From Alistipes sp. (GTDB taxonomy: Bacteria > Bacteroidota > Bacteroidia > Bacteroidales > Rikenellaceae): a stretch of 42,572 nt of DNA. The notes beneath the pieces were generated by a model, which had not been told where the DNA came from, did no database searches, and saw only the letters and a program-made list of their open reading frames with translations. Below, in pieces: positions 7,912 to 33,311 of this stretch. A program made the position numbers and the translations under genes. Each line of letters begins with the position of its first letter. The stretch's first letter is position 1. Location: positions 1-42,572 of the forward strand of contig JAFVWO010000050.1 in assembly GCA_017501625.1 (NCBI GenBank), read 5' to 3'.

Positions 7912-8065
7912 CATTGTATCGTTTGTTTTTGCTTGGGTTTTACCACAACCCTCTTGTAGATAAACGGGATTCATCTCCACACTTTCTTAGTTTAATATAA
8001 CCCGCCGTGATGGAGGTGTGCGGTATTGTTTGCGACAAACAATTATTAACCTAATACAACAATCT

Positions 8066-11000
8066 ATGAAAAAGCTATTTGCGCTTATGGCCATAGTTTT
8101 GGCCGTAGTAGTGTCATCGTGTCAGTATGATGATACAATGGTGTGGGAGCGATTCGACGACCACGAGAATCGAATCACACAACTTGAGGAGCTGTGTCGC
8201 GAGATGAACACTAACATCTCGGCACTGCAAAGCATCGTTGAGGCGTTGCAGAACAACGACTTTGTTACGAGCGTAACACCCGTTACGGAGGGCGGTGAGA
8301 CTATCGGTTATGTCATTACCTTCTCCAAGAGCGGAACTGTCACCATCTACCATGGTGAGGATGGCGCTGACGGTAAAGATGGTATAAACGGTGCCGATGG
8401 CAAGGATGGAGTTAATGGTGCTGATGGTAAAGATGGTGTCGATGGCGCTGACGGTAAGGATGGTATAAACGGTACCGATGGCAAGGATGGTGCTGACGGT
8501 GCTGATGGTAAGGATGGTGTTACACCGACGATTGGTGTGCGTCAGGATGAAGACGGCATCTACTATTGGACTATCAATGGTGAGTGGCTTACGGATGATG
8601 CCGGTAACAAGATTAAGGCTGTAGGCGTTGACGGCAAAGACGGTGTCGATGGAGCTGACGGCAAGGATGGTATAAACGGTACCGATGGCAAAGATGGTGT
8701 CGATGGTGCTGACGGCAAGGATGGTATAAATGGTGCCGATGGTAAGGATGGTGCTGATGCCATTGCTCCTCAACTTAAGATTGAGAATGATTACTGGTGG
8801 ATATCTACCGATGGTGGTTTGACGTGGACACAGCTTGGTAAGGCGAAGGGCGAGGATGGTGTCAACTACTGTGAGGTGTTCAAAGGTGTGTCGGAGGATG
8901 ACGACTATGTATACTTCACGCTTGCGGATGATAGCACCATCGCCGTGCTTAAGGATAAGGAGTTTACATTGGAGCTCGCCACCGAGAAATTCAACTACTC
9001 GTTGGGCTATACCTACACTATAGGCTACACAATCACGGGAGCAACCTCTGCAACAACGCTTGAGGTTATCGGCTCAAACAACCTTCAGCCTACAATCGAG
9101 AGCTATGCTCTGAACGAGGGCGTTGCTACTGGCGAGATTACGGTTGAGATGCCTAAGACCATTGTTCCACACGCTACCGTAGCGGTACTTGCGGGTGATG
9201 GTCGCAGCAAGGTGGTGATGAAGGCCGTACACTTCTACTATGAGGGTAACGATGATATTGAAGATGGCGTTCTTGTCATCACCTCGGGTGAGGCTCTCGA
9301 ATTTCCGAAGGATGGAGGTGTCGTTGAGGTTGATGTTCAGACCAACCTAAGCTATCGCGTAGATATTCCCGAAGAGTATTCATGGCTTACTGTTGCCGAG
9401 ACACGTGCATCACTCCGCGAGGAGACTCTGACATTTGCGGCCGAGGCTAACGAGGGTAACCCGCGCCACGCCTTTGCCTATATCATCGACCTTGCCGATA
9501 ACAGCATAGCTCAGACACTATGCTTCACTCAGGCGGCCGACACCACGCTTATGGGCGAGGAGGTTGTCTTTGTCGACGAGCTGCTTGGAGCATATATGAT
9601 TAAGAACTTCGACACAAATCAGGATGGTGTGCTCTCTAAGGATGAGGCTCTTGGCGTTGCTAATGTAGCTGTAGATAAGAATGTTGCCGACCTTACGGGC
9701 CTTGAGTGGTGTACTAACCTTAAGTCGCTCTCGTGTGCCTCAAATAGCTATCTCACGGCACTCAATACAACTCCCTATGCTCAGCTTGAGGAGTTGGATA
9801 TTAGCGGGTCGAAGATTACGTCGCTCGACCTTAGTAACAACCGTCGCCTGAAGCGACTCATTGTATACTCTTCAAAGCTCACGGCGCTTAATGTTGAGAA
9901 TAACAACGAGCTTGTTACTCTAAAGTGTTATTCGATGTCTAATCTCGCGAACACTACCCTTACGTTGAATAACCATCCCTATCTTGAGTATCTTGATTGT
10001 CAGAAATCTAAGCTCACTAAGCTCGATATAGCAAGTTGTTCGTCACTACAAACACTATATTGTCAGAACAATAGCATCTCGAAGCTCGATATTACCAATT
10101 GTCGCAACCTTGAGATACTTGATTGTAGGTCCAATACGATTGAGGAACTTAATTTCGCTAATACCACGAAGCTGCGTACTTTGGATTGCAGCGGTAATTA
10201 TATGACTAAGCTCAACCTCTCGGCATGTATGAATCTTCAGTATATCTATGATCAGATCTATTCATATAATGAACTCGATTTGCCATACCTTAGGGAGTTG
10301 AACTTGGGCTCTATACCGAGCATTAAGAGCCTTAGTATAGCTACGATTGGGACAGATGAGCTATACACCCTGAAGGTTAGTGGCGAGTGTCTTACATCGC
10401 TAACAGTAACGGCTCGTAACAAAAATATCAATGGCTTGTCTCTCGATTTACCGAACCTTAAATCGCTCTCAATCACGGGATATATGGGCACCGAGGAGGA
10501 TTTCGATGGCGTGCCTAACCTTAAATCGTTGGAACTCTCTGCCAATGTGCTCACCAAGCTCGATATGGCAAAATCACCGCTTCTGGAGTCGCTTAACATC
10601 ACTTCGGCTATCCATCTGCTCGACTTGAATATTGCGAATAATAAGCAACTTAAGAGCTTATTTATAGGTGAGGCAGGCGTAGTATTGAGCGCGATAGACC
10701 TCTCTAATAACACCGAGCTAACGAGATTGGTCATAGAGAAGGCCACTAACCTCGAGCGCTTGGATTTGTCCAACTGCCTAAAACTCTCATATGTATCATT
10801 AAGTTCTATACAGTCGCTGTCATATATTAATTTTGGCGAAAATCCAAATTATATTAATGTTTCACCATTTGATAGGTATGCCAGAGGTAATGGTTGGGAG
10901 TATCTCGGTGCCACTCTCGCAAGTGATTTGACGATTGTTGCGCCTCTTGCCGAGTCGCTGAATGTGTATGATGTCGCAGCGAATATCAAGCTTGATATTA

Positions 11001-11785
11001 CGGGGTGTCCCAAGTTGAGGAGCCTAGATGTCGAGGAAACATACAGAACGACAAATTATTATGGTGTAACAGAGTTAGACCTCAGCAAACAGACAGACCT
11101 AAGGACACTCTCGGTTGTTTGCAATAATCTCGACCTCGATTTTGACCTTAGAAACCACACTCCGCTGACATCTATACAGATACAAGGAACTTGTAATACG
11201 GTTAATGCCTCAAACCTTAAGAGCGTTGAGAGCATATCTCTTGGTAGCTGTGCATCGGTAGATATAAGCGGCTGTACGGCATTGACAAGTTTTGAGGCAG
11301 CAACAATCAAAGAACTTGACTTTAGCAACTGCCCGAATCTGAGGACATTTGCCGCACAGTGTAACTTCGAGCATCTAAATTTGAGCAATATGTCACAGCT
11401 CCAAGAGGTAGATTTACGTAATAGTCCGCTTCTTGATTCATTAGATGTTAGCGGTTGTAGCAACCTCTCCTCTTTAAGGTGTAACCACTCACCATGGCTC
11501 GCGGCTATAAATTTGGATGGATGTACAGCATTATCAGCATTATATCTATCATATTGCGAGAGACTGGCATCAATTGACCTTAGCGACTGTACGGCATTGA
11601 AATCGCTAGAGTGCGAGTTGTGTTCATTCACACAACTCGATGTGTCGTACTGCTCGGAGCTCACATCACTCGATTGTAGCCCGATGTCTACCTTGGAGAC
11701 TCTCTATGTTAATGCTACGCAGAATGAGAAACTTTCTCGTCACACAAACTATATCCCCAATAATACGAATATCGTAGTGAAGTAG
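8066..11785 (+). CDS. Giant surface lipoprotein: coiled-coil, collagen-like stalk, BACON-like, EF-hand-like, LRR array
   Basis: I take the ATG at 8066 (MKKLFALMAIVLAVVVSSC), giving 1239 residues with lipidated Cys19. The frame opens earlier with a GTG at 8018 that spoils the signal. Domains in order: short coiled-coil at about 25-65 with the NRITQLEELCREMNTNIS pattern typical of DUF4988-like lipoprotein heads; two Gly-X-Y collagen-like blocks (GADGKDG units) at about 99-151 and 187-232; a beta-rich part; a BACON-like domain at about 401-493; one EF-hand-like loop DTNQDGVLSKDE at about 515-526; then about 30 leucine-rich repeats of 20-23 residues (L-x-x-L-D-x-S-N/C pattern, many with conserved Cys) to about 1225. 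Likely an exposed adhesin or ligand-binding protein. The ligand is unknown. Confidence 0.85.
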   Translation: MKKLFALMAIVLAVVVSSCQYDDTMVWERFDDHENRITQLEELCREMNTNISALQSIVEALQNNDFVTSVTPVTEGGETIGYVITFSKSGTVTIYHGEDGADGKDGINGADGKDGVNGADGKDGVDGADGKDGINGTDGKDGADGADGKDGVTPTIGVRQDEDGIYYWTINGEWLTDDAGNKIKAVGVDGKDGVDGADGKDGINGTDGKDGVDGADGKDGINGADGKDGADAIAPQLKIENDYWWISTDGGLTWTQLGKAKGEDGVNYCEVFKGVSEDDDYVYFTLADDSTIAVLKDKEFTLELATEKFNYSLGYTYTIGYTITGATSATTLEVIGSNNLQPTIESYALNEGVATGEITVEMPKTIVPHATVAVLAGDGRSKVVMKAVHFYYEGNDDIEDGVLVITSGEALEFPKDGGVVEVDVQTNLSYRVDIPEEYSWLTVAETRASLREETLTFAAEANEGNPRHAFAYIIDLADNSIAQTLCFTQAADTTLMGEEVVFVDELLGAYMIKNFDTNQDGVLSKDEALGVANVAVDKNVADLTGLEWCTNLKSLSCASNSYLTALNTTPYAQLEELDISGSKITSLDLSNNRRLKRLIVYSSKLTALNVENNNELVTLKCYSMSNLANTTLTLNNHPYLEYLDCQKSKLTKLDIASCSSLQTLYCQNNSISKLDITNCRNLEILDCRSNTIEELNFANTTKLRTLDCSGNYMTKLNLSACMNLQYIYDQIYSYNELDLPYLRELNLGSIPSIKSLSIATIGTDELYTLKVSGECLTSLTVTARNKNINGLSLDLPNLKSLSITGYMGTEEDFDGVPNLKSLELSANVLTKLDMAKSPLLESLNITSAIHLLDLNIANNKQLKSLFIGEAGVVLSAIDLSNNTELTRLVIEKATNLERLDLSNCLKLSYVSLSSIQSLSYINFGENPNYINVSPFDRYARGNGWEYLGATLASDLTIVAPLAESLNVYDVAANIKLDITGCPKLRSLDVEETYRTTNYYGVTELDLSKQTDLRTLSVVCNNLDLDFDLRNHTPLTSIQIQGTCNTVNASNLKSVESISLGSCASVDISGCTALTSFEAATIKELDFSNCPNLRTFAAQCNFEHLNLSNMSQLQEVDLRNSPLLDSLDVSGCSNLSSLRCNHSPWLAAINLDGCTALSALYLSYCERLASIDLSDCTALKSLECELCSFTQLDVSYCSELTSLDCSPMSTLETLYVNATQNEKLSRHTNYIPNNTNIVVK
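8362..8520 (+). repeat. Collagen-like coding repeat, block 1
   Basis: About nine 18-bp-scale units of the GGTGCTGATGGCAAGGAT type encode GADGKDG(I/V)NG, a Gly-X-Y triplet pattern. Units are close to identical and may vary in number by slippage or recombination with block 2. Confidence 0.85.
8626..8762 (+). repeat. Collagen-like coding repeat, block 2
   Basis: The same GADGKDG-type units as block 1, separated from it by a short non-repetitive module containing DEDGIYYWTINGEWL. The order stalk, YYWTINGEWL module, stalk is therefore seen directly. Confidence 0.85.
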
Positions 11786-17991: not shown

Positions 17992-18062
17992 TGGGCTATG
18001 GTGTAATGGTAACACTACAGATTCTGGTCCTGTCATTCTTGGTTCGAATCCAGGTAGCCCAA
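17992..18062 (+). tRNA. tRNA-Gln(CTG)
   Basis: A 71-nt cloverleaf: acceptor TGGGCTA/TAGCCCA, anticodon loop TTCTGGT with anticodon CTG, T-arm CTTGG-TTCGAAT-CCAGG. The U1-A72 acceptor start is typical of glutamine tRNAs. CCA is not encoded. An A-C mismatch sits at the bottom of the anticodon stem (31-39). A terminator follows within a few bases. Confidence 0.92.
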
Positions 18063-18151
18063 CTAAAGCGACTCTCAGTGCGAGGGTCGTTTTTTTGTTG
18101 TATGTTTTGCAATAGGGTAGTGTTCCACTACCGCCACGTGTAGGCATGTAC
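18042..18151 (+). repeat. Direct repeat around the tRNA-Gln 3' end, copy 1
   Basis: Begins in the T-arm of tRNA-Gln (GTTCGAATCC) and runs through the terminator to about AGGCATGTACC. It recurs 332 bp downstream with a handful of differences. Confidence 0.85.
18067..18098 (+). terminator. tRNA-Gln terminator
   Basis: CGACTCTC pairs with GAGGGTCG (one G-T pair) and is followed by TTTTTTT. A duplicated copy stands at about 18400-18430. Confidence 0.8.
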
Positions 18152-20825: not shown

Positions 20826-20913
20826 TTCTTGTGATAAGGGGTCGCTTGCGGCCCCTAACAAAAAATGCCACCAATGGGACGTACACCAAGTACTACCTAT
20901 CGGTGGCTTTTTT
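20826..20913 (+). ncRNA. Two-hairpin 3' element, copy 1 (after dnaK)
   Basis: Lead TTCTTGTGATAAGG, hairpin 1 GGGGTCG/CGGCCCC (loop CTTG), an A-rich spacer, and hairpin 2 GCCACC-A-ATGGG ... CCTAT-C-GGTGGC with an A-C mismatch and inner TAC/GTA. It ends in a T7 run, so this copy can terminate transcription. It shares architecture and many bases with copies after mreB, the oxoamine synthase and aspS. Confidence 0.65.
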
Positions 20914-20997
20914 GCCGATGTATGCTCCCGCTACGACTGTTCGGTAGAGTGAAAGATGTTAGAAACACCACTTTGGACATGAGTAATTAGAAACATT

Positions 20998-21117
20998 GAG
21001 GCTGAATAAAAAGTGTATTTTGTCGTTATACTCGCCCTCAAAATGCTCATTTACGCCAAGTAAACTCCGCTTTTTCGGGCTTCGCAGGCCTAAAACTACA
21101 TCTTTTTATTCAGCCTC
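20998..21117 (-). repeat. Repeat A, copy 2 (120 bp, opposite orientation to copy 1)
   Basis: Arms GAGGCTGAATAAAAAG and CTTTTTATTCAGCCTC. The body matches the reverse complement of copy 1 almost base for base, with identical length. The GGGGATGAC hairpin follows at 21128-21159 in the same relative order as in copy 1, so the repeated unit is about 165 bp and includes both hairpins. Confidence 0.85.
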
Positions 21118-21127
21118 TTAACAAAAC

Positions 21128-21159
21128 GGGGATGACAAATTTACTTTTTAGTCATCCCC
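21128..21159 (-). terminator. Terminator-like hairpin of repeat A copy 2
   Basis: GGGGATGAC/GTCATCCCC stem with an A/T-rich loop, starting 14 bp beyond the stop of the Omp28-type lipoprotein gene. It probably ends that transcript. Confidence 0.6.
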
Positions 21160-21173
21160 ACGTTATTCGCAGG

Positions 21174-23855
21174 TTAGAATGTGTAGACGAAGGTATACTC
21201 TGTGCTGTCGGTAAACTGCAACGTGAGGCTCATTTTGCCCTGTAGCACGGTCATCGTACCATCTGTTACCGCCTTGCTTATACCATCAATCTTTACACTA
21301 TCGGCGTGGAATTGACCCGCGTTGCAAGCGTAGCTTCTTGGGGTTGTAAATTGATACTTTCCATCGTTGATAGATGTCGTTGTACCCCAATAGTCGCCTA
21401 CGTACACCTTGAGTGAGGTGTTGCCACCATCCGTAAAGGAGTAGGTATGCAGATAGCTGCCCAAAAGCGTATCGCTATAAGACATTGTCGAGAGCTTTAT
21501 GGCGTTCTCGTCATCGCCTTCGGGGACGTCGCCACTGTCATTATCGTCGCCATTATTACCACCGGCACCCGATATATACTCGTAGTCCAAGGTGCTATTT
21601 ATGGGGCACACGGCGCAGTTGACAACCTCGTAGCCACCCGATGAGGCATCATTATCGGCGCTAACGATAGCTATAACCTCGAGGTTGTTGGCGTTCCAGC
21701 TCGCATCAATGGGGAGCTGATAGCTGCGGCTCACCTCAAAGCCTACGGGGAGGGTGGCAAGCTCATCACCTGCCATGTCGCGCTTGCTGTAGGGTGTGAC
21801 TATCTCGCGCAGGGCGTGGTTATAGACGTAGTGGTGCTCTTTGTAGCCATTCGACTGGTTGGGTGATTGGATATTGTTCTCCAACACCCATACGGCAAGG
21901 TAGTACTCCTGCTCCAAGGCCGATGTCACATCTACGTTGATGTTAAGCGTGCCGCCCGACACGGAGGTTTCCATGGCGATACCTACGGCAGCACCATGCT
22001 TACTATGGTATGAGTTGAAGATGTTGCGCATCGTGGTATTCACGAAGTAGTCATCGCTATCCCCGCGAGGTATAATGCCTCCAAAATAGTTAAGGTAGAT
22101 GGTGGGTAGGCCACTAACACCTTGGAATGAGTACATGTCTGCGGCGGCCTTCGAGTATGCGGGGTCGCTGCTCGACATCTTACCCGCATGGAGTGTTACC
22201 TCGTGGTAGTACTCCTTGAACTCCGATGCAGCGAGAGCATGTAGGCGGTCCATGGCTGTGGGGCAGTAGCCGCAACCCATGTCAGTATGGTCGAGGATTA
22301 GGATGCGGTGGCTAAAAAGCGATGTTGTGCCGGAGCCTCCACCCGTACCTTCGCCCACGGTCTCACCATTGATAAAGTCATAGCCCACGATATAGTTGGC
22401 ATAGGGCATCCATGAGGCGTGTTGTTTGTATGTCTCTACGGCACTCTCAGGAACATATATCAGCGCTCCGATATAGCTGTAGCCTCCTGTAGGGCTGTCG
22501 CACAGCAGGGCGCTGTCGCCAAGCGTGGGAGGCGTTGTGGCACGTATATATATCTTCTGTATGTCGCGACTATTGGTGAAGGCATAAGGACCGATGTTCT
22601 CTATGCCGCTACCAATGTGCACCTCCTTAAGGCCTGTTGTCGCAAAGGCTGCCTGGCCTATGCTCTTAACCGAGTGAGGCAGGTAGATGGTCTCCAAGGT
22701 GCTTTGGTTATAGAATGCCAGTTGGTTGATGGTTGTCACCGCTGCATCGAACTCTATGGCGTAGAGCGAGTAGCACTGTCCATTGGCACAAGCACCAAAG
22801 ATGTGATTCGTTATGTTGGCATCTGTAGGTGAAGACTGTATTGTCAGCTGCCCACCCGTAGTGTTGTACCATATAGAGTTGTTGCCGGGGAACTTCTTCT
22901 CCACCTCACCTGCACCCTCCTCGGGGACATAGTCGAAGGCACGCATGCCCTGTATAGCATTGCGGTCGATGGCAACGCTCTTATCTGTAGACTTTGTCAT
23001 CGTGCCACCATTAGTGTCGGTAATAACTATGGTTATACCCTCGGTGAAGGTCTGAGGCAATAGGCCGATGTAGAATGTTGTCGCTGTTGTGGCGTTAAGC
23101 ATCGCGCCACCCTCGCACGTGAGTGTCATGGCCGTTGTGGGGCTCTCTGTGGCTACGAATGATGCTGTAGCATCCTCAGTGTTGATGACAATATCGCCTG
23201 CAAGCTGCTCGCCCTTGTTGCCTGTGAGCGTGATGCTTGCTATGGCGTGACTTGCACCTGTGAGTTCCACCTTCAGCCAACCATACACATTTCTCAGTGT
23301 CATGTTGTTTGTGGTGCTCTGTGCCACGAGGATGTTGCCACCCATGCCGTAGCTACCCTCGGCGTAGCTCTGTGTGGCCGTCACCGTCGCTCTCACGCTG
23401 TTATCCTCCTCGTTGTAGAGGTATGCCTCGTTGTCGGGGTAGAGCACAACGATGTTGCCCTCTACCTCGGGCGTTGTAACCTCCCCAACAGGCTCTATCG
23501 TGCCCTCGGTATCGCCCGTAGCACCTTGGAACTGCCACTGCTGGCGTGTCGCGCTCTTGTAGAATACCGTGAGAAGGTCATCTTCGTTCCATACGGTATG
23601 TAGCTCCTCGTTGAGCTGTATGCGTGTGTCGTTACCCTCAACGCCTACGGTTATAGATATGCTTTGGTTCTCCTCATTGTCGGGATTATCTCCATTGGTG
23701 TTCTCCTCCTCGCTTGGCGTATTCTCATCGTCAGGCTGCTCTATATTATCGGTGTTATCCTTGGGCGTGTCGATGTCGTTATTTGTCTCGGTGCATGCAA
23801 CCATGGCAACCATGGCAAACAAAAGTATAAATGCTCTCTTCATAATAACTCTCAT
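21174..23855 (-). CDS. Multidomain surface lipoprotein: fimbrillin-like, BspA-like LRR, Omp28/thioredoxin-like
   Basis: 893 residues. The ATG at 23855 lies 1 nt after the stop of a small ORF. An ATG at 23843 (MKRAFILLFAMVAMVAC) would keep the same lipobox. An acidic Asn/Asp/Glu-rich linker (about 22-65) precedes a fimbrillin-like beta domain (about 65-320, with WNEDDLLTVFY and VYGWLKVELTG). Next come BspA-like repeats (about 350-480, IEFDAAVTTINQLAFYNQST, LKEVHIGSGIENIGPYAF). Then an Omp28-type thioredoxin-fold region (about 515-760) carries DHTDMGCGYCP, a redox-type CxxC. A beta tail follows (about 800-893, ending DSTEYTFVYTF). Probably surface-exposed. Whether the CGYC pair is redox-active is unknown. 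Confidence 0.8.
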   Translation of the reverse strand: MRVIMKRAFILLFAMVAMVACTETNNDIDTPKDNTDNIEQPDDENTPSEEENTNGDNPDNEENQSISITVGVEGNDTRIQLNEELHTVWNEDDLLTVFYKSATRQQWQFQGATGDTEGTIEPVGEVTTPEVEGNIVVLYPDNEAYLYNEEDNSVRATVTATQSYAEGSYGMGGNILVAQSTTNNMTLRNVYGWLKVELTGASHAIASITLTGNKGEQLAGDIVINTEDATASFVATESPTTAMTLTCEGGAMLNATTATTFYIGLLPQTFTEGITIVITDTNGGTMTKSTDKSVAIDRNAIQGMRAFDYVPEEGAGEVEKKFPGNNSIWYNTTGGQLTIQSSPTDANITNHIFGACANGQCYSLYAIEFDAAVTTINQLAFYNQSTLETIYLPHSVKSIGQAAFATTGLKEVHIGSGIENIGPYAFTNSRDIQKIYIRATTPPTLGDSALLCDSPTGGYSYIGALIYVPESAVETYKQHASWMPYANYIVGYDFINGETVGEGTGGGSGTTSLFSHRILILDHTDMGCGYCPTAMDRLHALAASEFKEYYHEVTLHAGKMSSSDPAYSKAAADMYSFQGVSGLPTIYLNYFGGIIPRGDSDDYFVNTTMRNIFNSYHSKHGAAVGIAMETSVSGGTLNINVDVTSALEQEYYLAVWVLENNIQSPNQSNGYKEHHYVYNHALREIVTPYSKRDMAGDELATLPVGFEVSRSYQLPIDASWNANNLEVIAIVSADNDASSGGYEVVNCAVCPINSTLDYEYISGAGGNNGDDNDSGDVPEGDDENAIKLSTMSYSDTLLGSYLHTYSFTDGGNTSLKVYVGDYWGTTTSINDGKYQFTTPRSYACNAGQFHADSVKIDGISKAVTDGTMTVLQGKMSLTLQFTDSTEYTFVYTF

Positions 23856-23856
23856 T

Positions 23857-23982
23857 TTACCAATCTAACTCATCTTTTACATAGGGGTCTTCCATGCTTG
23901 TTGAAAAGCCGTGCTCTACGGCCACCTCCGTTACCAAAATCTCTGGCGCGAGGTACACATCTTTGGGATAGTACGCTGTCAT
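23857..23982 (-). CDS. Small ORF (41 residues) directly upstream of the multidomain lipoprotein gene
   Basis: The ATG at 23982 opens MTAYYPKDVYLAPEILVTEV, continues VAVEHGFSTSM and ends with the acidic VKDELDW, stopping at 23857. Only one base separates its TAA from the lipoprotein ATG, and a TATCTTTG box stands about 65 nt upstream. Composition is protein-like and the Y-x-x-P-E-I-x-V-x-E-V-x-V-E-x-G-F-x-x-S pattern resembles short peptides I recall upstream of surface-protein genes in Bacteroidales. That resemblance is from memory, not a search. It has no signal peptide or membrane segment. Translational coupling with the lipoprotein is likely. Confidence 0.6.
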   Translation of the reverse strand: MTAYYPKDVYLAPEILVTEVAVEHGFSTSMEDPYVKDELDW

Positions 23983-24046
23983 TGGGTCTCGATGTTAATA
24001 GTTCGTATGTTTTATAATTCTCGATGGTGGATGTAACATCCTAGTA

Positions 24047-24054
24047 CAAAGATA
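24047..24054 (-). promoter_or_regulatory. -7 box for the small ORF and lipoprotein operon
   Basis: TATCTTTG on the minus strand, about 65 nt before the small ORF. Confidence 0.5.
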
Positions 24055-24237
24055 TAGCATTTTTTTTGTGTCTACAAAATATTTTGCCCTATTTTTAGGC
24101 ATAGGTGTGACAGATGATACGGACGGTAGTAACAAACTAAGATTAGTAATAGGGGTGTTAGCATGTGTTACTACAGTTACTACTATTATTCGCACTACTA
24201 ATTACCAATTATACGTATAATATTAGATAAATTGTTG

Positions 24238-27311: not shown

Positions 27312-28340
27312 ATGGGACTTTTTTCACTTACGCAGGAATTAGCTATTGACCTCGGTACGGCCAATACGCTCATCATGCACAATGGCAAGGTTGTCGTTGA
27401 CGAGCCTTCGATTGTTGCTCTCAGCATTAAGACCGGTGACCTCATGGCCATAGGTCATAAGGCGCGCCTTATGGATGGTAAGACACACTCTAACATCCGC
27501 ACTATTCGTCCTTTGAAGGATGGTGTTATCGCCGACTTTGAGGCTACGGAGCTTATGCTTCGCGGTCTAATCAAGAAGGTTGGTGCTACGCGCGGTATGT
27601 TCGCGCCCTCGCTACGCATGATGATATGTATCCCTTCGGGTTCTACGAATGTGGAGATTCGTGCCGTGCGCGACTCGGCACAGCATGCCGGCGGTCGCGA
27701 GATATACCTTATCTTCGAGCCTATGGCTGCAGCTCTCGGTGCCGGCCTCGATGTTGAGGCTCCTGAGGGTAACCTTATCATCGACATCGGTGGTGGTACG
27801 TCGGAGATAGCATGTATCTCGCTTGGCGGTATTGTATGCTCGAAGTCTATCAATGTGGCGGGTGATGTCTTTACCAACGACATCCAGAACTACATCCGTC
27901 AGCAGCATGGTATACGTATCGGTGAGCGCACTGCCGAGGATATAAAGTGTGCCATAGGTGCTGCCGTGCCTGAGCTCGAGAATGAGCCCGAGGATTACAT
28001 CTTCACAGGCTCGAATATGCTCACCAACCTGCCGCAGACCGTTACGCTCAACTATAGCGAGATAGCCTACGCCCTCGATAAGTCGCTCGTGAAGCTCGAC
28101 AACGCACTTATGGAGGTGCTCGAGAATATGCCTCCCGAGCTATACTCCGATGTTGTGAAGAATGGTATCTACCTTGCCGGTGGTGGTGCTCTTATCAAGG
28201 GTCTCGACCAGCGCCTATCGAAGAAGTCGGGTCTTCCCGTGCATATTGCCGACGATCCCCTTCGTGCCATTGCGCGCGGTACATGTATAGCCCTCAAGAA
28301 CATAGGTAACTTCTCGTTCTTGATGGGTGGAGAGAAATAA
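27312..28340 (+). CDS. mreB: Rod shape-determining protein MreB
   Basis: A 342-residue bacterial actin that forms membrane-bound filaments guiding the elongation machinery. Motifs: phosphate 1 AIDLGTANTLI (residues 11-21), VVDEPSIVAL, LIIDIGGGTSEIACISLGG (phosphate 2, near residue 160), and IYLAGGGALIKGLDQRL near the C-terminus. Length and start (MGLFSLTQELAIDLG) are standard. First gene of the mreB-mreC-mreD-mrdA-rodA set, but separated from mreC by 279 bp holding the 3' element and a hairpin, so it may also be transcribed alone. Confidence 0.97.
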   Translation: MGLFSLTQELAIDLGTANTLIMHNGKVVVDEPSIVALSIKTGDLMAIGHKARLMDGKTHSNIRTIRPLKDGVIADFEATELMLRGLIKKVGATRGMFAPSLRMMICIPSGSTNVEIRAVRDSAQHAGGREIYLIFEPMAAALGAGLDVEAPEGNLIIDIGGGTSEIACISLGGIVCSKSINVAGDVFTNDIQNYIRQQHGIRIGERTAEDIKCAIGAAVPELENEPEDYIFTGSNMLTNLPQTVTLNYSEIAYALDKSLVKLDNALMEVLENMPPELYSDVVKNGIYLAGGGALIKGLDQRLSKKSGLPVHIADDPLRAIARGTCIALKNIGNFSFLMGGEK

Positions 28341-28619: not shown

Positions 28620-29456
28620 ATGCATCGTTTAGTAGAGTTCATAAAGCGCATATACGTCCTTGTCGTATTCCTCCTCCTCGAGGTGGGTGCGCTGTGGAGT
28701 TATGCTACATCCTCGTCATATGCTGAAGCGAAGATTTTATCGCGCACAACAGCTGTAGGCGGGGCTGTAAGTGGTGTGATAACGGATGTGGGTCACTTCT
28801 TCTCGCTCCCCGAGGTCAATCGTCGACTCACGGCGCGTGTTGCGGAGCTCAACGAGGAGCTTGAGAGTGCCGAAGCGTTGCTCTACGCCTCGGGTCTCGA
28901 CACCACGGCGATGGCTATGTTTGAGGATAGCAATCACCATTTCCGCTATCATCCTGCACGTGTGGTGTCGATGACGACAAATCGCAAGAAGAACATCATC
29001 GTGTTGGATAGAGGCACGATAGACGGTGTGGCACGCGACATGGGTGTTATAACGCCCGACAACGAGCTTGTGGGCTATGTCGTGTCGTGCTCGGAGCACT
29101 ATGCTGTGGTGATGCCCATGCTCAATATCGACTTCTCGACAGGAGGACGCATCGTCGAGAACGACCACGTATGTGTGATACGTTGGACGGGGGAGTCGAG
29201 GTTTGAGGTTGAGGCTGTGGAGCTCTCGATATACTCCGAACCCAAGCGAGGCATGGAGGTGGAGGTGCGCTCGGAGCGCCTGCCCTCGGGAATCACGGTG
29301 GGAACAATCGAGGAGTATGAGCTTAATAGTGCTAAGTCGGCATATACGGCAACGCTGCGTATCGCTGCCGACATGGCGACACTCGATAATGTGCTTATTG
29401 TCGAGAATACGCATTATGGCGAGATTGAGGAGCTCATAAAGCAGGTGGAAAACTAA
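28620..29456 (+). CDS. mreC: Rod shape-determining protein MreC
   Basis: A 278-residue bitopic protein that links MreB inside to PBP2 in the periplasm. It has a short cytoplasmic tail, one membrane helix (about 11-30, YVLVVFLLLEVGALWSY), and a coiled-coil (about 65-90, VNRRLTARVAELNEELESAEA). The MreC beta-barrel pair follows (from about YHPARVVSMTTNRKKNIIVLDRG to YTATLRIAADM). IVLDRGTIDGVARDMGVI is the characteristic segment. mreD follows after 16 bp. Confidence 0.93.
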   Translation: MHRLVEFIKRIYVLVVFLLLEVGALWSYATSSSYAEAKILSRTTAVGGAVSGVITDVGHFFSLPEVNRRLTARVAELNEELESAEALLYASGLDTTAMAMFEDSNHHFRYHPARVVSMTTNRKKNIIVLDRGTIDGVARDMGVITPDNELVGYVVSCSEHYAVVMPMLNIDFSTGGRIVENDHVCVIRWTGESRFEVEAVELSIYSEPKRGMEVEVRSERLPSGITVGTIEEYELNSAKSAYTATLRIAADMATLDNVLIVENTHYGEIEELIKQVEN

Positions 29457-29472: not shown

Positions 29473-29985
29473 ATGTTTAAGAATATATCATACTTTTGGT
29501 TGACGCTGGCGCTACTTGTAGCCGAGATATTTATCCTCGACCAACTATCCATAGCCATGTGGTTGCGCCCCATGCTCTTTCAGTTGATAGTCATACTGCT
29601 GCCGATGGAGTGGCGCACGATATGGGTGCTTGTGGTGTCGCTCGTGGTGGGTGTGGTGATGGATGTGTCGCTTGGAGGTGCAGGACTATATACGGCTACG
29701 CTTCTTCCGCTTGCTGTCGTGCGTCGCACGGTGATGTACCTCACGACACGACGTAGCGTGGAGCCCGGCGATCAATCACCGTTGCTTACACGTATGAGTC
29801 AGCGACAGTTGATGATATATGTCGGGGCGATGATTTTTGTTCACCATCTGCTCTTCTTCTGGCTGGAGACTATGTCGATGGTGTCGCTGTGGCATCTTGT
29901 GGCAACAATCATCATGAGTACGCTACTATCGGTGGTCATAGCATGGCCTATTGTTCGACTCTTCCTCTCTAAAATTGTAAGGTGA
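29473..29985 (+). CDS. mreD: Rod shape-determining protein MreD
   Basis: A 170-residue polytopic inner-membrane protein of the elongation complex with about five hydrophobic segments (WLTLALLVAEIFILDQL, FQLIVILLPMEW, WVLVVSLVVGVVMDVSLGGAGLY, LMIYVGAMIFVHHLLFFWL, LVATIIMSTLLSVVIAWPIV). The V(M)D(V)S(L)GGAGLYTAT phrase is the family mark. It overlaps mrdA as TGATG, so the two are translationally coupled. Confidence 0.9.
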   Translation: MFKNISYFWLTLALLVAEIFILDQLSIAMWLRPMLFQLIVILLPMEWRTIWVLVVSLVVGVVMDVSLGGAGLYTATLLPLAVVRRTVMYLTTRRSVEPGDQSPLLTRMSQRQLMIYVGAMIFVHHLLFFWLETMSMVSLWHLVATIIMSTLLSVVIAWPIVRLFLSKIVR

Positions 29986-31865
29986 TGTACCAGAACGAAG
30001 GATACGTGAGATATAGGATATTGAGGATTGTGGTGCTTGGCATTGGCGCTGTAATCCTCATGCGTCTCTTTGCTATGCAGATTCTCGATGATGGCTACGA
30101 TGAGCGTGCCACTCAGAATATGTTACGCACGGAGGTGGAGTACCCGATGCGTGGTGAGGTTCTCGACCGTAATGGTGAGTACTTGGTTAAGAGCCGAGTA
30201 TGCTACGATGTTATGGTCGTATATCGCGAGTTGCCGAAGGAGGGCTTCGACACGCTGCGCCTCATGACCATCCTCGATATGTCGAAGGAGGCTCTTACGA
30301 AGCGCCTGAGAGAGGCATCGCGTAGCCCGCGTGCTGTAACGCTTGTTGTGGGCTACCTTTCGCAGGAGGGCAAGCTTCTCTTGGATGAGGGTGGCTTCTC
30401 GGGTTTCCATACGCGCTTCCGCACGGCACGTGAGTATCCGCGAAAGATTGGTGGCAACCTCCTCGGTTATGTGAGCGAGATTACGCAGGGGCAGTTGCAG
30501 CGTAGCGAGTACGACTATTACGAGGCGGGCGACTATATCGGTACGCAGGGCGTAGAGTCGGCTTACGAGACACTGTTGCGCGGTGAGAAGGGCGTGAGCT
30601 ACCGCATATACGACTCGCACGGCGCCGTGCAAGGCTCCTATAACGATGGCGAGAATGATGTGCAACCCATTAAGGGTGCGCAGCTCACGTCGACGATAGA
30701 TGCACGCCTACAGGAGTTTGCCGAGCAGATGATGGAGGGAAAGATAGGCTCGGTGGTGGCTATCGAGCCCTCGACGGGAGAGATTCTTGTGATGGTGTCG
30801 TCGCCGACGTATAACCCCGACCTTATGGTTGGTCGTGCCCGCTCGGCAAACTATGCGAGCATGTTACACGACCAGCGACAGCCGCAGTTTAATCGTGCTG
30901 TCAAGGCTAAATATCCTCCGGGCTCGACGTTTAAGCTTGTGCAGGGACTCATAGGCTTGCAGGAGGGTACGCTGCGTGCATCGGATCGCTACCCCTGTAA
31001 CAATGGCTATAGCTATGGCACACGTAAGATGGGTTGCCATCCACATTCGTCGCCTCTCGACCTGCGTGATGCTGTGGCGTAGTCGTGCAACGCCTACTTC
31101 TGCTATGTCTTTAAGGATATGATTACCAACACGAAGTATGGTAATGTGAAGGAGGGTGTGCGCGTGTGGAATGACTATGTATATAGCTTCGGCTTTGGGC
31201 GTAGGCTCGGCACGGATCTCTATGGCGAGGGCGCAGGATATGTCCCCACGCCGGAGTACTACGACCGTGGATATAATGGCCGCTGGAATTGGGGTACGGT
31301 GCTTTCGTGCTCTATCGGTCAGGGTGAGATGGGATGTACACCGCTACAGATGGCCAACCTTGCAGCCATTGTCGCAAATCGTGGTTACTACTATGTGCCA
31401 CACCTTATAAAGCGTATCGAGGGTCGTGACTCGATAGACAGGCGCTTCTACGAGCGCCACTATACGATGGTCGACTCGGTGAACTTCGTGCCTATTGTCG
31501 ATGGTATGTGGCGTAGTGTGAACGTGTCGGGAACATCGCGCACGGCATACCTCGAGGGCTTGGATGTATGTGGCAAGACGGGTACGGCACAGAACCCGTT
31601 GGGCGCTGACCACTCGACATTCCTGTCGTTTGCACCGAAGAACAACCCGAAGATAGCAATCTCGGTATATGTCGAGCATGGTGGCTTCGGCTCGGCTATC
31701 GCTGTGCCCATCGCGAGCCTTATTGAGGAGTTGTATCTCACGGACACGATACGTCGTCCCGAGTTGTTGGAGCGAGTGCTTAACTTCAAGCCTAACTACG
31801 CACGCTACGACGAGAAACAGCGCAAGTATGATGCGGAGCGCCAAAAGAAGAACGAAAAGAGGTAA
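29985..31865 (+). pseudogene. mrdA: Penicillin-binding protein 2 (MrdA), interrupted by an in-frame TAG at codon 366
   Basis: Class B transpeptidase of rod elongation, about 627 codons. The N-terminal anchor is about residues 8-30 (YRILRIVVLGIGAVILMRLFAM). The pedestal includes YPMRGEVLDRNGE. The active-site S-x-x-K is Ser314-Thr-Phe-Lys317 (PPGSTFKLVQG), and the K-T-G motif is Lys531-Thr-Gly533 (CGKTGTAQNP). Both halves lie in one frame with no length anomaly, but codon 366 (31080-31082) is TAG in the stretch LRDAVA-stop-SCNAYF. The S-x-N motif (Ser367-Cys-Asn369) starts at the very next codon. A single C-to-T change from CAG (Gln, a fitting residue here) would explain it. A second start at 31119 would make only the C-terminal part. 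Nonsense allele, readthrough or sequence error cannot be told apart here. Confidence 0.9.
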
Positions 31866-31871
31866 AGGATT

Positions 31872-33311
31872 ATGATTTCGGATTACAACATATCGCGACG
31901 TAAGGGTAGCAATGCGCTCTTTGGCTCTATCGACAAGGTGGCCTTGGGACTCTATGCGTTGATTGTCATAATTGGCGTATTTTGTATCACCTCAGCCTCG
32001 TATGACCCCGATAACGGCAGCATCTTCTCGCTTAGCCACAACTATATGAAGCAGATTGTGTGGGTCGTAATATCGTGGACGATGGCAATCGTGGTGTTAT
32101 TGCTGGATAGACGCCTATTTCACATGTTTGCATATCCTGCATATATATTGGGTATCATGGCATTGCTTGCGGCACTGTTCTTTGGTCGCGAGGTCAACGG
32201 TGCTAAGGCGTGGTTCGAGCTTGGAGGCATGCGTATACAGCCGGTGGAGTTCGTTAAGATAGCCACGGCGTTGATGATGGCACGTGTGATGAGCGACTAT
32301 GTCTTCAATATCAATCGCCTTACGGATTTGGTTAAGGTTGCGGGTGTGATACTTCTGCCGTTGGGCATCATCGTCTTGCAGAACGACACAGGCTCAGGCT
32401 TGGTGCTGGGAGCCTTCCTCTTTGTGTTGTACAGAGAGGGTCTGTCGAAGTATATATACTTCCCGATAATCTTCACCATTGTGCTCTTCGTGGTGTCGTT
32501 TATCTTCTCGCCTGTTGTGATTTTTACCGCCTTATTGGTGCTCTTTACACTCTATAGCGCACTCAAGACGGGGGCTATTGCCGGCCATGCCCGCTTCCTA
32601 TGCTGTGTATTGTTGGCGGCGCTGCTCTTGGCGCTGCTCACACCCCTTAGCGGCTATGCCTCGATGATGATTGTCTGCGGTGTGGCAGCCCTCTTGCTTG
32701 CGGCTGTGGCGCTCAAGACACGCACGATGATGCTCCTTTGGCCGATACTGATGTTTGTCTATGCCATGCTCTTCGTGCCTACAACGGATGTCCTCTTCTC
32801 GCACCTCGAGGAGCATCAGAAAAACCGAATACTCACCTTTGTAGGCCTTGTTGATGACCCTCGCGGTGTGGGTTATAATGTCAACCAGTCGCAGATAGCC
32901 ATAGGCTCGGGCGGCATGTGGGGTAAGGGCTTTATGGAGGGTACGCAGATAAAGTACGACTTTGTGCCGGAGAAGCATACCGACTTTATCTTCTGCATCG
33001 TGGGCGAGGAGCAGGGCTTCTTCGGGGCGTTTATCGTCGTGGCGTTGTACTTAGCCCTCATTTTACGACTTATGCGCATGGGCGAGCGTATCAAAGAGCC
33101 CTTTGGCAGGGTATATTGCTACTCGGTTGCGGCAATACTGTTGCTTCACGTATTAGTAAACATAGGTATGACCATAGGCATCATGCCCGTTATGGGTATC
33201 CCGTTGCCACTTATGAGCTACGGAGGGTCGTCGCTTGTGGCCTTCACCCTGCTGATAATGATAGCAATACGCCTTGATGCCACGACGTCGGATAACGACA
33301 TCTACGCGTAA
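31872..33311 (+). CDS. rodA: Rod shape-determining protein RodA (SEDS glycosyltransferase)
   Basis: A 479-residue SEDS-family peptidoglycan polymerase and partner of PBP2. About ten hydrophobic helices are visible, with an enlarged middle section (about 190-300) of extra membrane segments compared with the usual 370-420 residues. Signatures are in order: FGREVNGAKAWFELGG (W-x-x-x-G type loop), NDTGSGLVLG, VPEKHTDFIFCIVGEEQGF with the conserved E-H-T-D-F region, and MSYGGSSLVAF near the C-terminus. It begins 6 bp after the mrdA frame ends, the standard arrangement. Confidence 0.94.
   Translation: MISDYNISRRKGSNALFGSIDKVALGLYALIVIIGVFCITSASYDPDNGSIFSLSHNYMKQIVWVVISWTMAIVVLLLDRRLFHMFAYPAYILGIMALLAALFFGREVNGAKAWFELGGMRIQPVEFVKIATALMMARVMSDYVFNINRLTDLVKVAGVILLPLGIIVLQNDTGSGLVLGAFLFVLYREGLSKYIYFPIIFTIVLFVVSFIFSPVVIFTALLVLFTLYSALKTGAIAGHARFLCCVLLAALLLALLTPLSGYASMMIVCGVAALLLAAVALKTRTMMLLWPILMFVYAMLFVPTTDVLFSHLEEHQKNRILTFVGLVDDPRGVGYNVNQSQIAIGSGGMWGKGFMEGTQIKYDFVPEKHTDFIFCIVGEEQGFFGAFIVVALYLALILRLMRMGERIKEPFGRVYCYSVAAILLLHVLVNIGMTIGIMPVMGIPLPLMSYGGSSLVAFTLLIMIAIRLDATTSDNDIYA

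Follow-up and report, generated by a model that had tools for sequence, protein, structure and literature searches.

A private in-frame TAG in the PBP2 gene (mrdA) of an Alistipes draft genome is most likely an assembly error or a very recent mutation

In a stretch of 42,572 nucleotides of Alistipes DNA (the window; contig C38 of the assembly G000), the gene for PBP2 (mrdA) was confirmed to be broken in the consensus by an in-frame TAG, as described in a first-pass annotation of this DNA. The TAG is most likely an assembly error or a very recent mutation, and not a novel form of genetic decoding. It is present in the consensus, it is private among the relatives that were read, and the gene remained under strong selection until very recently; that the cells themselves lack the TAG is our inference. 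In the following, G-numbers designate genomes and L-numbers designate fetched loci. The relevant features of the window are:

17992..18063, plus strand: tRNA-Gln(CTG), the near-cognate tRNA that a read-through model would use
27312..28340, plus strand: mreB, intact (PF06723, E=4.4e-118)
28620..29456, plus strand: mreC, intact (PF04085, E=7.4e-26)
29473..29985, plus strand: 170-aa ORF of mreD size, its name resting solely on its position; its last base overlaps the ATG of PBP2
29985..31865, plus strand: mrdA (PBP2), 626 codons and a TAA stop, with one internal TAG (TIGR03423, E=1.7e-133)
30924..30935, plus strand: S-T-F-K active-site motif (residues 314-317), upstream of the TAG
31080..31082, plus strand: in-frame TAG at codon 366, a sense codon in 43 of 43 other Alistipes PBP2 genes read
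31083..31091, plus strand: S-C-N motif (residues 367-369), directly 3' of the TAG
31119..31121, plus strand: first in-frame ATG past the TAG (codon 379); a product re-initiated here would be without S-C-N
31575..31583, plus strand: K-T-G motif (residues 531-533)
31872..33311, plus strand: rodA, intact (PF01098, E=2.5e-86), beginning just past the PBP2 stop

Translation of positions 29985 to 31865 gave a single PBP2 frame of 626 residues with one internal stop, and the gene is otherwise free of internal stops and frame breaks. Under the standard code, the frame is interrupted by this TAG, which lies between the first and the second of the three motifs SxxK, SxN and KTG; the earlier statement that it separates Ser314/Lys317 from S-x-N and K-T-G could be verified. 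In Pfam searches, the upstream piece matched PBP_dimer (PF03717) and positions 1-98 of the 299 positions of the transpeptidase model (PF00905), and the downstream piece matched positions 102-295 of PF00905. Since the domains are split across both pieces, these represent one broken gene and not two genes. Apart from the TAG, the protein matches MrdA (TIGR03423) over its whole length, with the same three motifs and the gene order mreBCD-mrdA-rodA (mreD by position). The bit score of 444.5 is below the curated cut-off of 455, as it is in most of the genus, where 32 of 151 genomes score above it. The best solved relative is 7kis_A (MrdA), with which the orthologue from the genome G044 (L043), which has no internal stop, aligns over residues 14-588 (E=2.7e-66). 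A split protein with re-initiation was considered and rejected: no ATG, GTG or TTG is found between the TAG and S-C-N, and because the first start after the TAG is located downstream of S-C-N, re-initiation would be unable to restore this motif.

The neighbouring genes had been described as intact. This holds for MreB, MreC and RodA, which all gave Pfam matches above the curated cut-offs. For MreD it holds in part, as the ORF in its place gave no Pfam match at E <= 0.001, yet its open frame is kept in relatives, with a dN/dS of 0.07 compared with G044.

When codon 366 was compared among relatives, a sense codon was found in all 43 distinct other Alistipes genes read (37 distinct genes, i.e. 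43 rows less six named duplicates, and six further relatives) and in 14 of 14 loci from outside Alistipes. The remaining genomes of the genus were judged by the program's internal-stop flag only, 151 of the 180 genus genomes being searched. The four nearest PBP2 genes, with DNA identities to the window of 89% (G044), 84% (G105), 84% (G113) and 78% (G144), all encode Gln at this codon. The proposed change from CAG to TAG by a single transition holds. Other residues at this column are His, Thr and Glu within Alistipes, and Val, Asn, Arg, Gln, Glu or Thr outside it; because such varied residues occur in and outside the genus, the column is permissive. A stop common to relatives was looked for and none was seen at column 366 in the loci read. 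Stop symbols in L033, L038, L042, L009 and L056 correspond to positions 585-625 of the 626-residue query and were taken as gene ends. In these alignments, the TAG is private to G000 among the relatives read. The first-pass annotation had named a sense codon at 31080-31082 in related assemblies as the finding that would speak against it, and sense codons are indeed present there, in relatives of other species.

Compared with G044, the dN/dS of PBP2 was 0.036 for the codons before the TAG and 0.022 for those after it, which can be set beside 0.021 for rodA, 0.010 for mreB and 0.061 for mreC. Changes on the G000 branch were polarised using G105 and G113 as outgroups, and 66 synonymous and 10 non-synonymous codon changes of ambiguous polarity were left out. 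Of the changed codons assigned to the branch, 35 synonymous and 4 non-synonymous ones lie before the TAG, and 29 synonymous and 1 non-synonymous after it. The total of 64 synonymous and 5 non-synonymous changes compares with ∼216 non-synonymous changes expected if the gene were neutral, and the 95% Poisson upper limit for the neutral share of the branch is ∼5%. Judged by these substitution patterns, purifying selection on PBP2 was strong both before and after the TAG. Therefore, if PBP2 is dead, its death would fall within approximately the last 5% of the branch. The selection record also implies that the TAG is absent from the living population, or is very recent, or that the product is still full length. 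Relaxed selection or further lesions, which would mark an established pseudogene, were not seen in the window PBP2.

TAG is used as a normal stop in this genome, as had been stated. It ends 5 of 26 hand-listed ORFs in the window and, in a gene-call sample covering 641 kb of G000 (∼40% of the genome), 192 of 512 calls, compared with 279 ending in TAA and 41 in TGA; among G000 calls matching G044, 81 of 224 end in TAG. The gene for RF1 (prfA) is full length, with 357 of 361 model positions matched and no stop. Use of TAG as an amino acid codon, by a genome or prophage that reassigns it via a suppressor tRNA, has a probability close to nil on these counts, and genome-wide recoding is rejected. 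No CTA anticodon was present among the 24 tRNAs found in G000, although in a bin that is 80% complete a tRNA of this kind may have been missed. For crAss-like phages from human faeces, reassignment of TAG to Gln (code 15) is backed by proteomics (PMC9523058). The window PBP2 resembles those phages in having TAG where its nearest relatives have Gln, but G000 differs in having one such site, with TAG otherwise terminating and no CUA tRNA found.

To survey internal stops, 830 gene calls of G044 were used, of which 223 were matched at >= 80% in the 641-kb sample, 208 of these being covered to >= 90%. Twelve stop rows from 10 G044 calls were flagged and judged by mismatch periodicity. PBP2 was the only mid-gene stop with a clear third-position bias among the 223 matched genes. 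Two further flagged calls with this bias had stops at codons 27-28 and were read as different start sites, five without it look like out-of-frame calls, and L118_14 (TAA at codon 40 of 225) and L140_5 (TAG at codon 53 and TAA at codon 89 of 369) are candidate early stops. Two split matches were also obtained, a clear one-base frameshift in L161_2 (DUF4301) and an ambiguous match with several gaps in L120_4 (424 aa). In the reverse control, in which G000 calls were matched to G044, 4 stop rows and 0 split rows were obtained, and three of the stops were within the first 47 codons.

A real TAG that is partly read through by a near-cognate tRNA would yield some full-length PBP2, and elongation might then be dose-dependent; we regard this as improbable. 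The varied residues at column 366 suggest that several inserted amino acids might do, and tRNA-Gln(CTG) is encoded in the window, with both Gln(CTG) and Gln(TTG) tRNAs present in G000. Misreading of UAG as Gln in E. coli has been reported in earlier work cited in a passage of PMC5289835. However, the base after the TAG is T, and the same source includes the statements that a +4 U reduces read-through in E. coli and yeast and that UAG-U is cited as a low read-through context in yeast, although in bacteria the +4 U effect is described there as acting mainly at UAA and less at UAG. Further, a site that is used should be common to relatives, and TAG was found in 0 of the 43 relatives read; an intact RF1 and the common use of TAG as a terminator also argue against it. 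Suppression by tRNA-Gln(CUG), one of the three options that the first-pass annotation had left unranked, is possible in principle, but none of the findings supports it. In a stricter version, a genuine TAG would be fixed in this Alistipes population, and the little PBP2 that is needed would come from near-cognate read-through at a low level, so that rod elongation would be dose-limited by termination efficiency; this is more improbable still.

The assembly itself offers a simpler source of the TAG. G000 is an Alistipes draft of 1.62 Mb in 108 contigs, 80% complete and with 3.4% contamination. Its ftsI on contig C95 is 88.9% identical over 2942 bases to G044, in line with the 89% of the window PBP2. 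A second ftsI-like gene on contig C71 (loci L003 and L110) is 98.8% identical over 4032 bases to G038, another Alistipes species, and this similarity probably marks C71 as a contaminant of the bin that belongs to that other species. Gut MAGs of Alistipes from roe deer, sheep, yak and water deer make up the six nearest named genomes. These hosts are among the seven of a 2021 ruminant-gut study in which the contigs for binning were obtained by assembling single samples and by MEGAHIT co-assembly of samples from the same region (PMC8199421); the MAGs, or G000, may have originated in that study. The DUF4301 gene on contig C100 (L115, ∼10265) has a one-base gap compared with the intact 477-codon gene of G044, and its mismatches by codon position (23, 10 and 161) keep the third-position bias. 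By this pattern, the frameshift is a second fresh lesion in G000, of the kind left by errors or very young mutations. Identity between G000 and G044 is uniform around the TAG (0.82-0.92 in each 100-base interval between 30500 and 31600). A local chimera was rejected, since no dip in identity is seen around 31080. Long cross-species k-mer collapse was not evident either: among the loci fetched by that stage, the longest exact shared stretch, the changed base aside, extends 12 bases to the left and 25 to the right (G044).

Internal stops in PBP2 were also searched for in other genomes with TIGR03423, using 151 genomes from the genus, 149 from the order and 149 from the class, which correspond to 445 distinct genomes because G000 is in all three sets and G238 and G284 are in two; some genomes, e.g. 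G123 and G092, gave weak matches only instead of a full PBP2 row. Among the matches listed, internal stops were found in G000 and in G010, G297 and G358, i.e. in 3 of 444 Bacteroidota genomes when G000 is excluded. In G010, a further genome of the genus (L202, contig C62, PBP2 from 2137), a TAA replaces the codon of the catalytic Ser314 (YPPG*TFKL), which is TCA or TCG in five relatives fetched; G297 (L208) has an internal TAG at PBP2 position 74 and G358 (L210) an internal TGA at position 186. Like the window PBP2, these are single in-frame stops in otherwise long frames, in one genome each, but they differ in stop codon or position, that of G010 being on the catalytic serine codon itself. 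The location of the G000 and G010 stops in catalytic motifs was considered as clustering and dismissed as coincidence, the G297 and G358 stops being elsewhere. For comparison, no internal stop was found among the matches listed for gyrB (151 + 149 genomes, 299 distinct) or for rpoB (107 of 151 genomes matched), and a Fisher test on rounded counts (3/445 vs 0/416) gave p = 0.25. This hints, if weakly, at tolerance of PBP2 stops as opposed to random error. Sporadic PBP2 stops are rare and not unique, and there may be a mild tolerance of PBP2 loss. Literature searches found no paper on premature stops and assembly or strain error in metagenome-assembled genomes and none on mrdA nonsense with mecillinam and ppGpp; for transposon essentiality of Bacteroides PBP2/mrdA, nothing on point was found by title and start of abstract.

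If the TAG is a real, very recent nonsense allele, which we consider a possible but clearly less favoured reading, the product would be a PBP2 of 365 residues with the membrane anchor, the pedestal and a truncated transpeptidase. Cross-linking by the Rod complex would be lost, cells would be round or slow-growing, and the allele might be carried by a low-growth niche or by one strain among several. One transition is enough to create it, and the gene is otherwise intact, as expected of a very young change; the stops in three other genomes, with none among the gyrB and rpoB matches listed, point in the same direction. The E. coli Rod system is marked as non-essential on M9 and essential on LB in PMC6207328. 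On the other side, strong selection persisted over all but ∼5% or less of the branch, and no decay is seen in mreB, mreC or rodA. A full-length but catalytically inactive PBP2 (S330C) exerts a strong dominant-negative effect in E. coli (PMC7793260), and blocking of PBP2 by mecillinam sets off a futile cycle that is cytotoxic (PMC6207328); by analogy with these effects, a truncated PBP2 partner could be costly. The PBP2 pedestal of E. coli is implicated in binding and activation of RodA (PMC6207328), and the 365-residue product would keep the pedestal without a working transpeptidase; given the dominant-negative effect of S330C, the allele should be costly. A second functional PBP2 was not found in the 80% complete bin. 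Four transpeptidase matches were obtained in G000, namely the broken PBP2, a lower-scoring match on C34 (model positions 1-245 of 299) and two that are ftsI-like by length and context; the match on C34 is presumably a class A PBP. A real and tolerated TAG would mean that a gut Alistipes lives with little or none of the transpeptidase that partners RodA, and would be a natural test of the extent to which the Rod system is dispensable in Bacteroidales.

Probably, and ahead of a recent nonsense allele, read-through and recoding in this order, the TAG is an assembly or consensus error, or a minority, unfixed variant that is present in the consensus; among the options of the first-pass annotation, this is the one that the analysis favours. 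A sporadic one-base change would have entered the consensus of a metagenome-type draft assembly, and most living cells of the species would have a normal, functional PBP2 encoded by mrdA in a typical mreBCD-mrdA-rodA cluster. The comparisons that favour an artefact are the sense codon in all relatives, the selection that was kept and the second fresh lesion in DUF4301, together with a fragmented, mixed bin and the sporadic PBP2 stops in other genomes. Against it, a young real lesion would look alike, and with one clear mid-gene stop and one clear frameshift in the 641 kb sampled the assembly is not full of lesions; the uniform identity to G044 around 31080 and the contrast between PBP2 and gyrB/rpoB in listed stops also count against it. 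The main lesson of the present evidence is that a single stop in a core gene of a draft, metagenome-type genome should be backed by reads before any biological conclusion is drawn from it.

Elsewhere in the window, ∼3.4 kb (20844-24237) are without a match in the corresponding contig of G044, in which the flanks are only ∼190 bases apart. This segment encodes a protein of 893 aa (21174-23855, minus strand) with Omp28 and BspA-type leucine-rich-repeat matches. At 8018-11785, an ORF of 1255 aa combines DUF4988, collagen-like repeats and leucine-rich repeats and perhaps encodes a surface protein.
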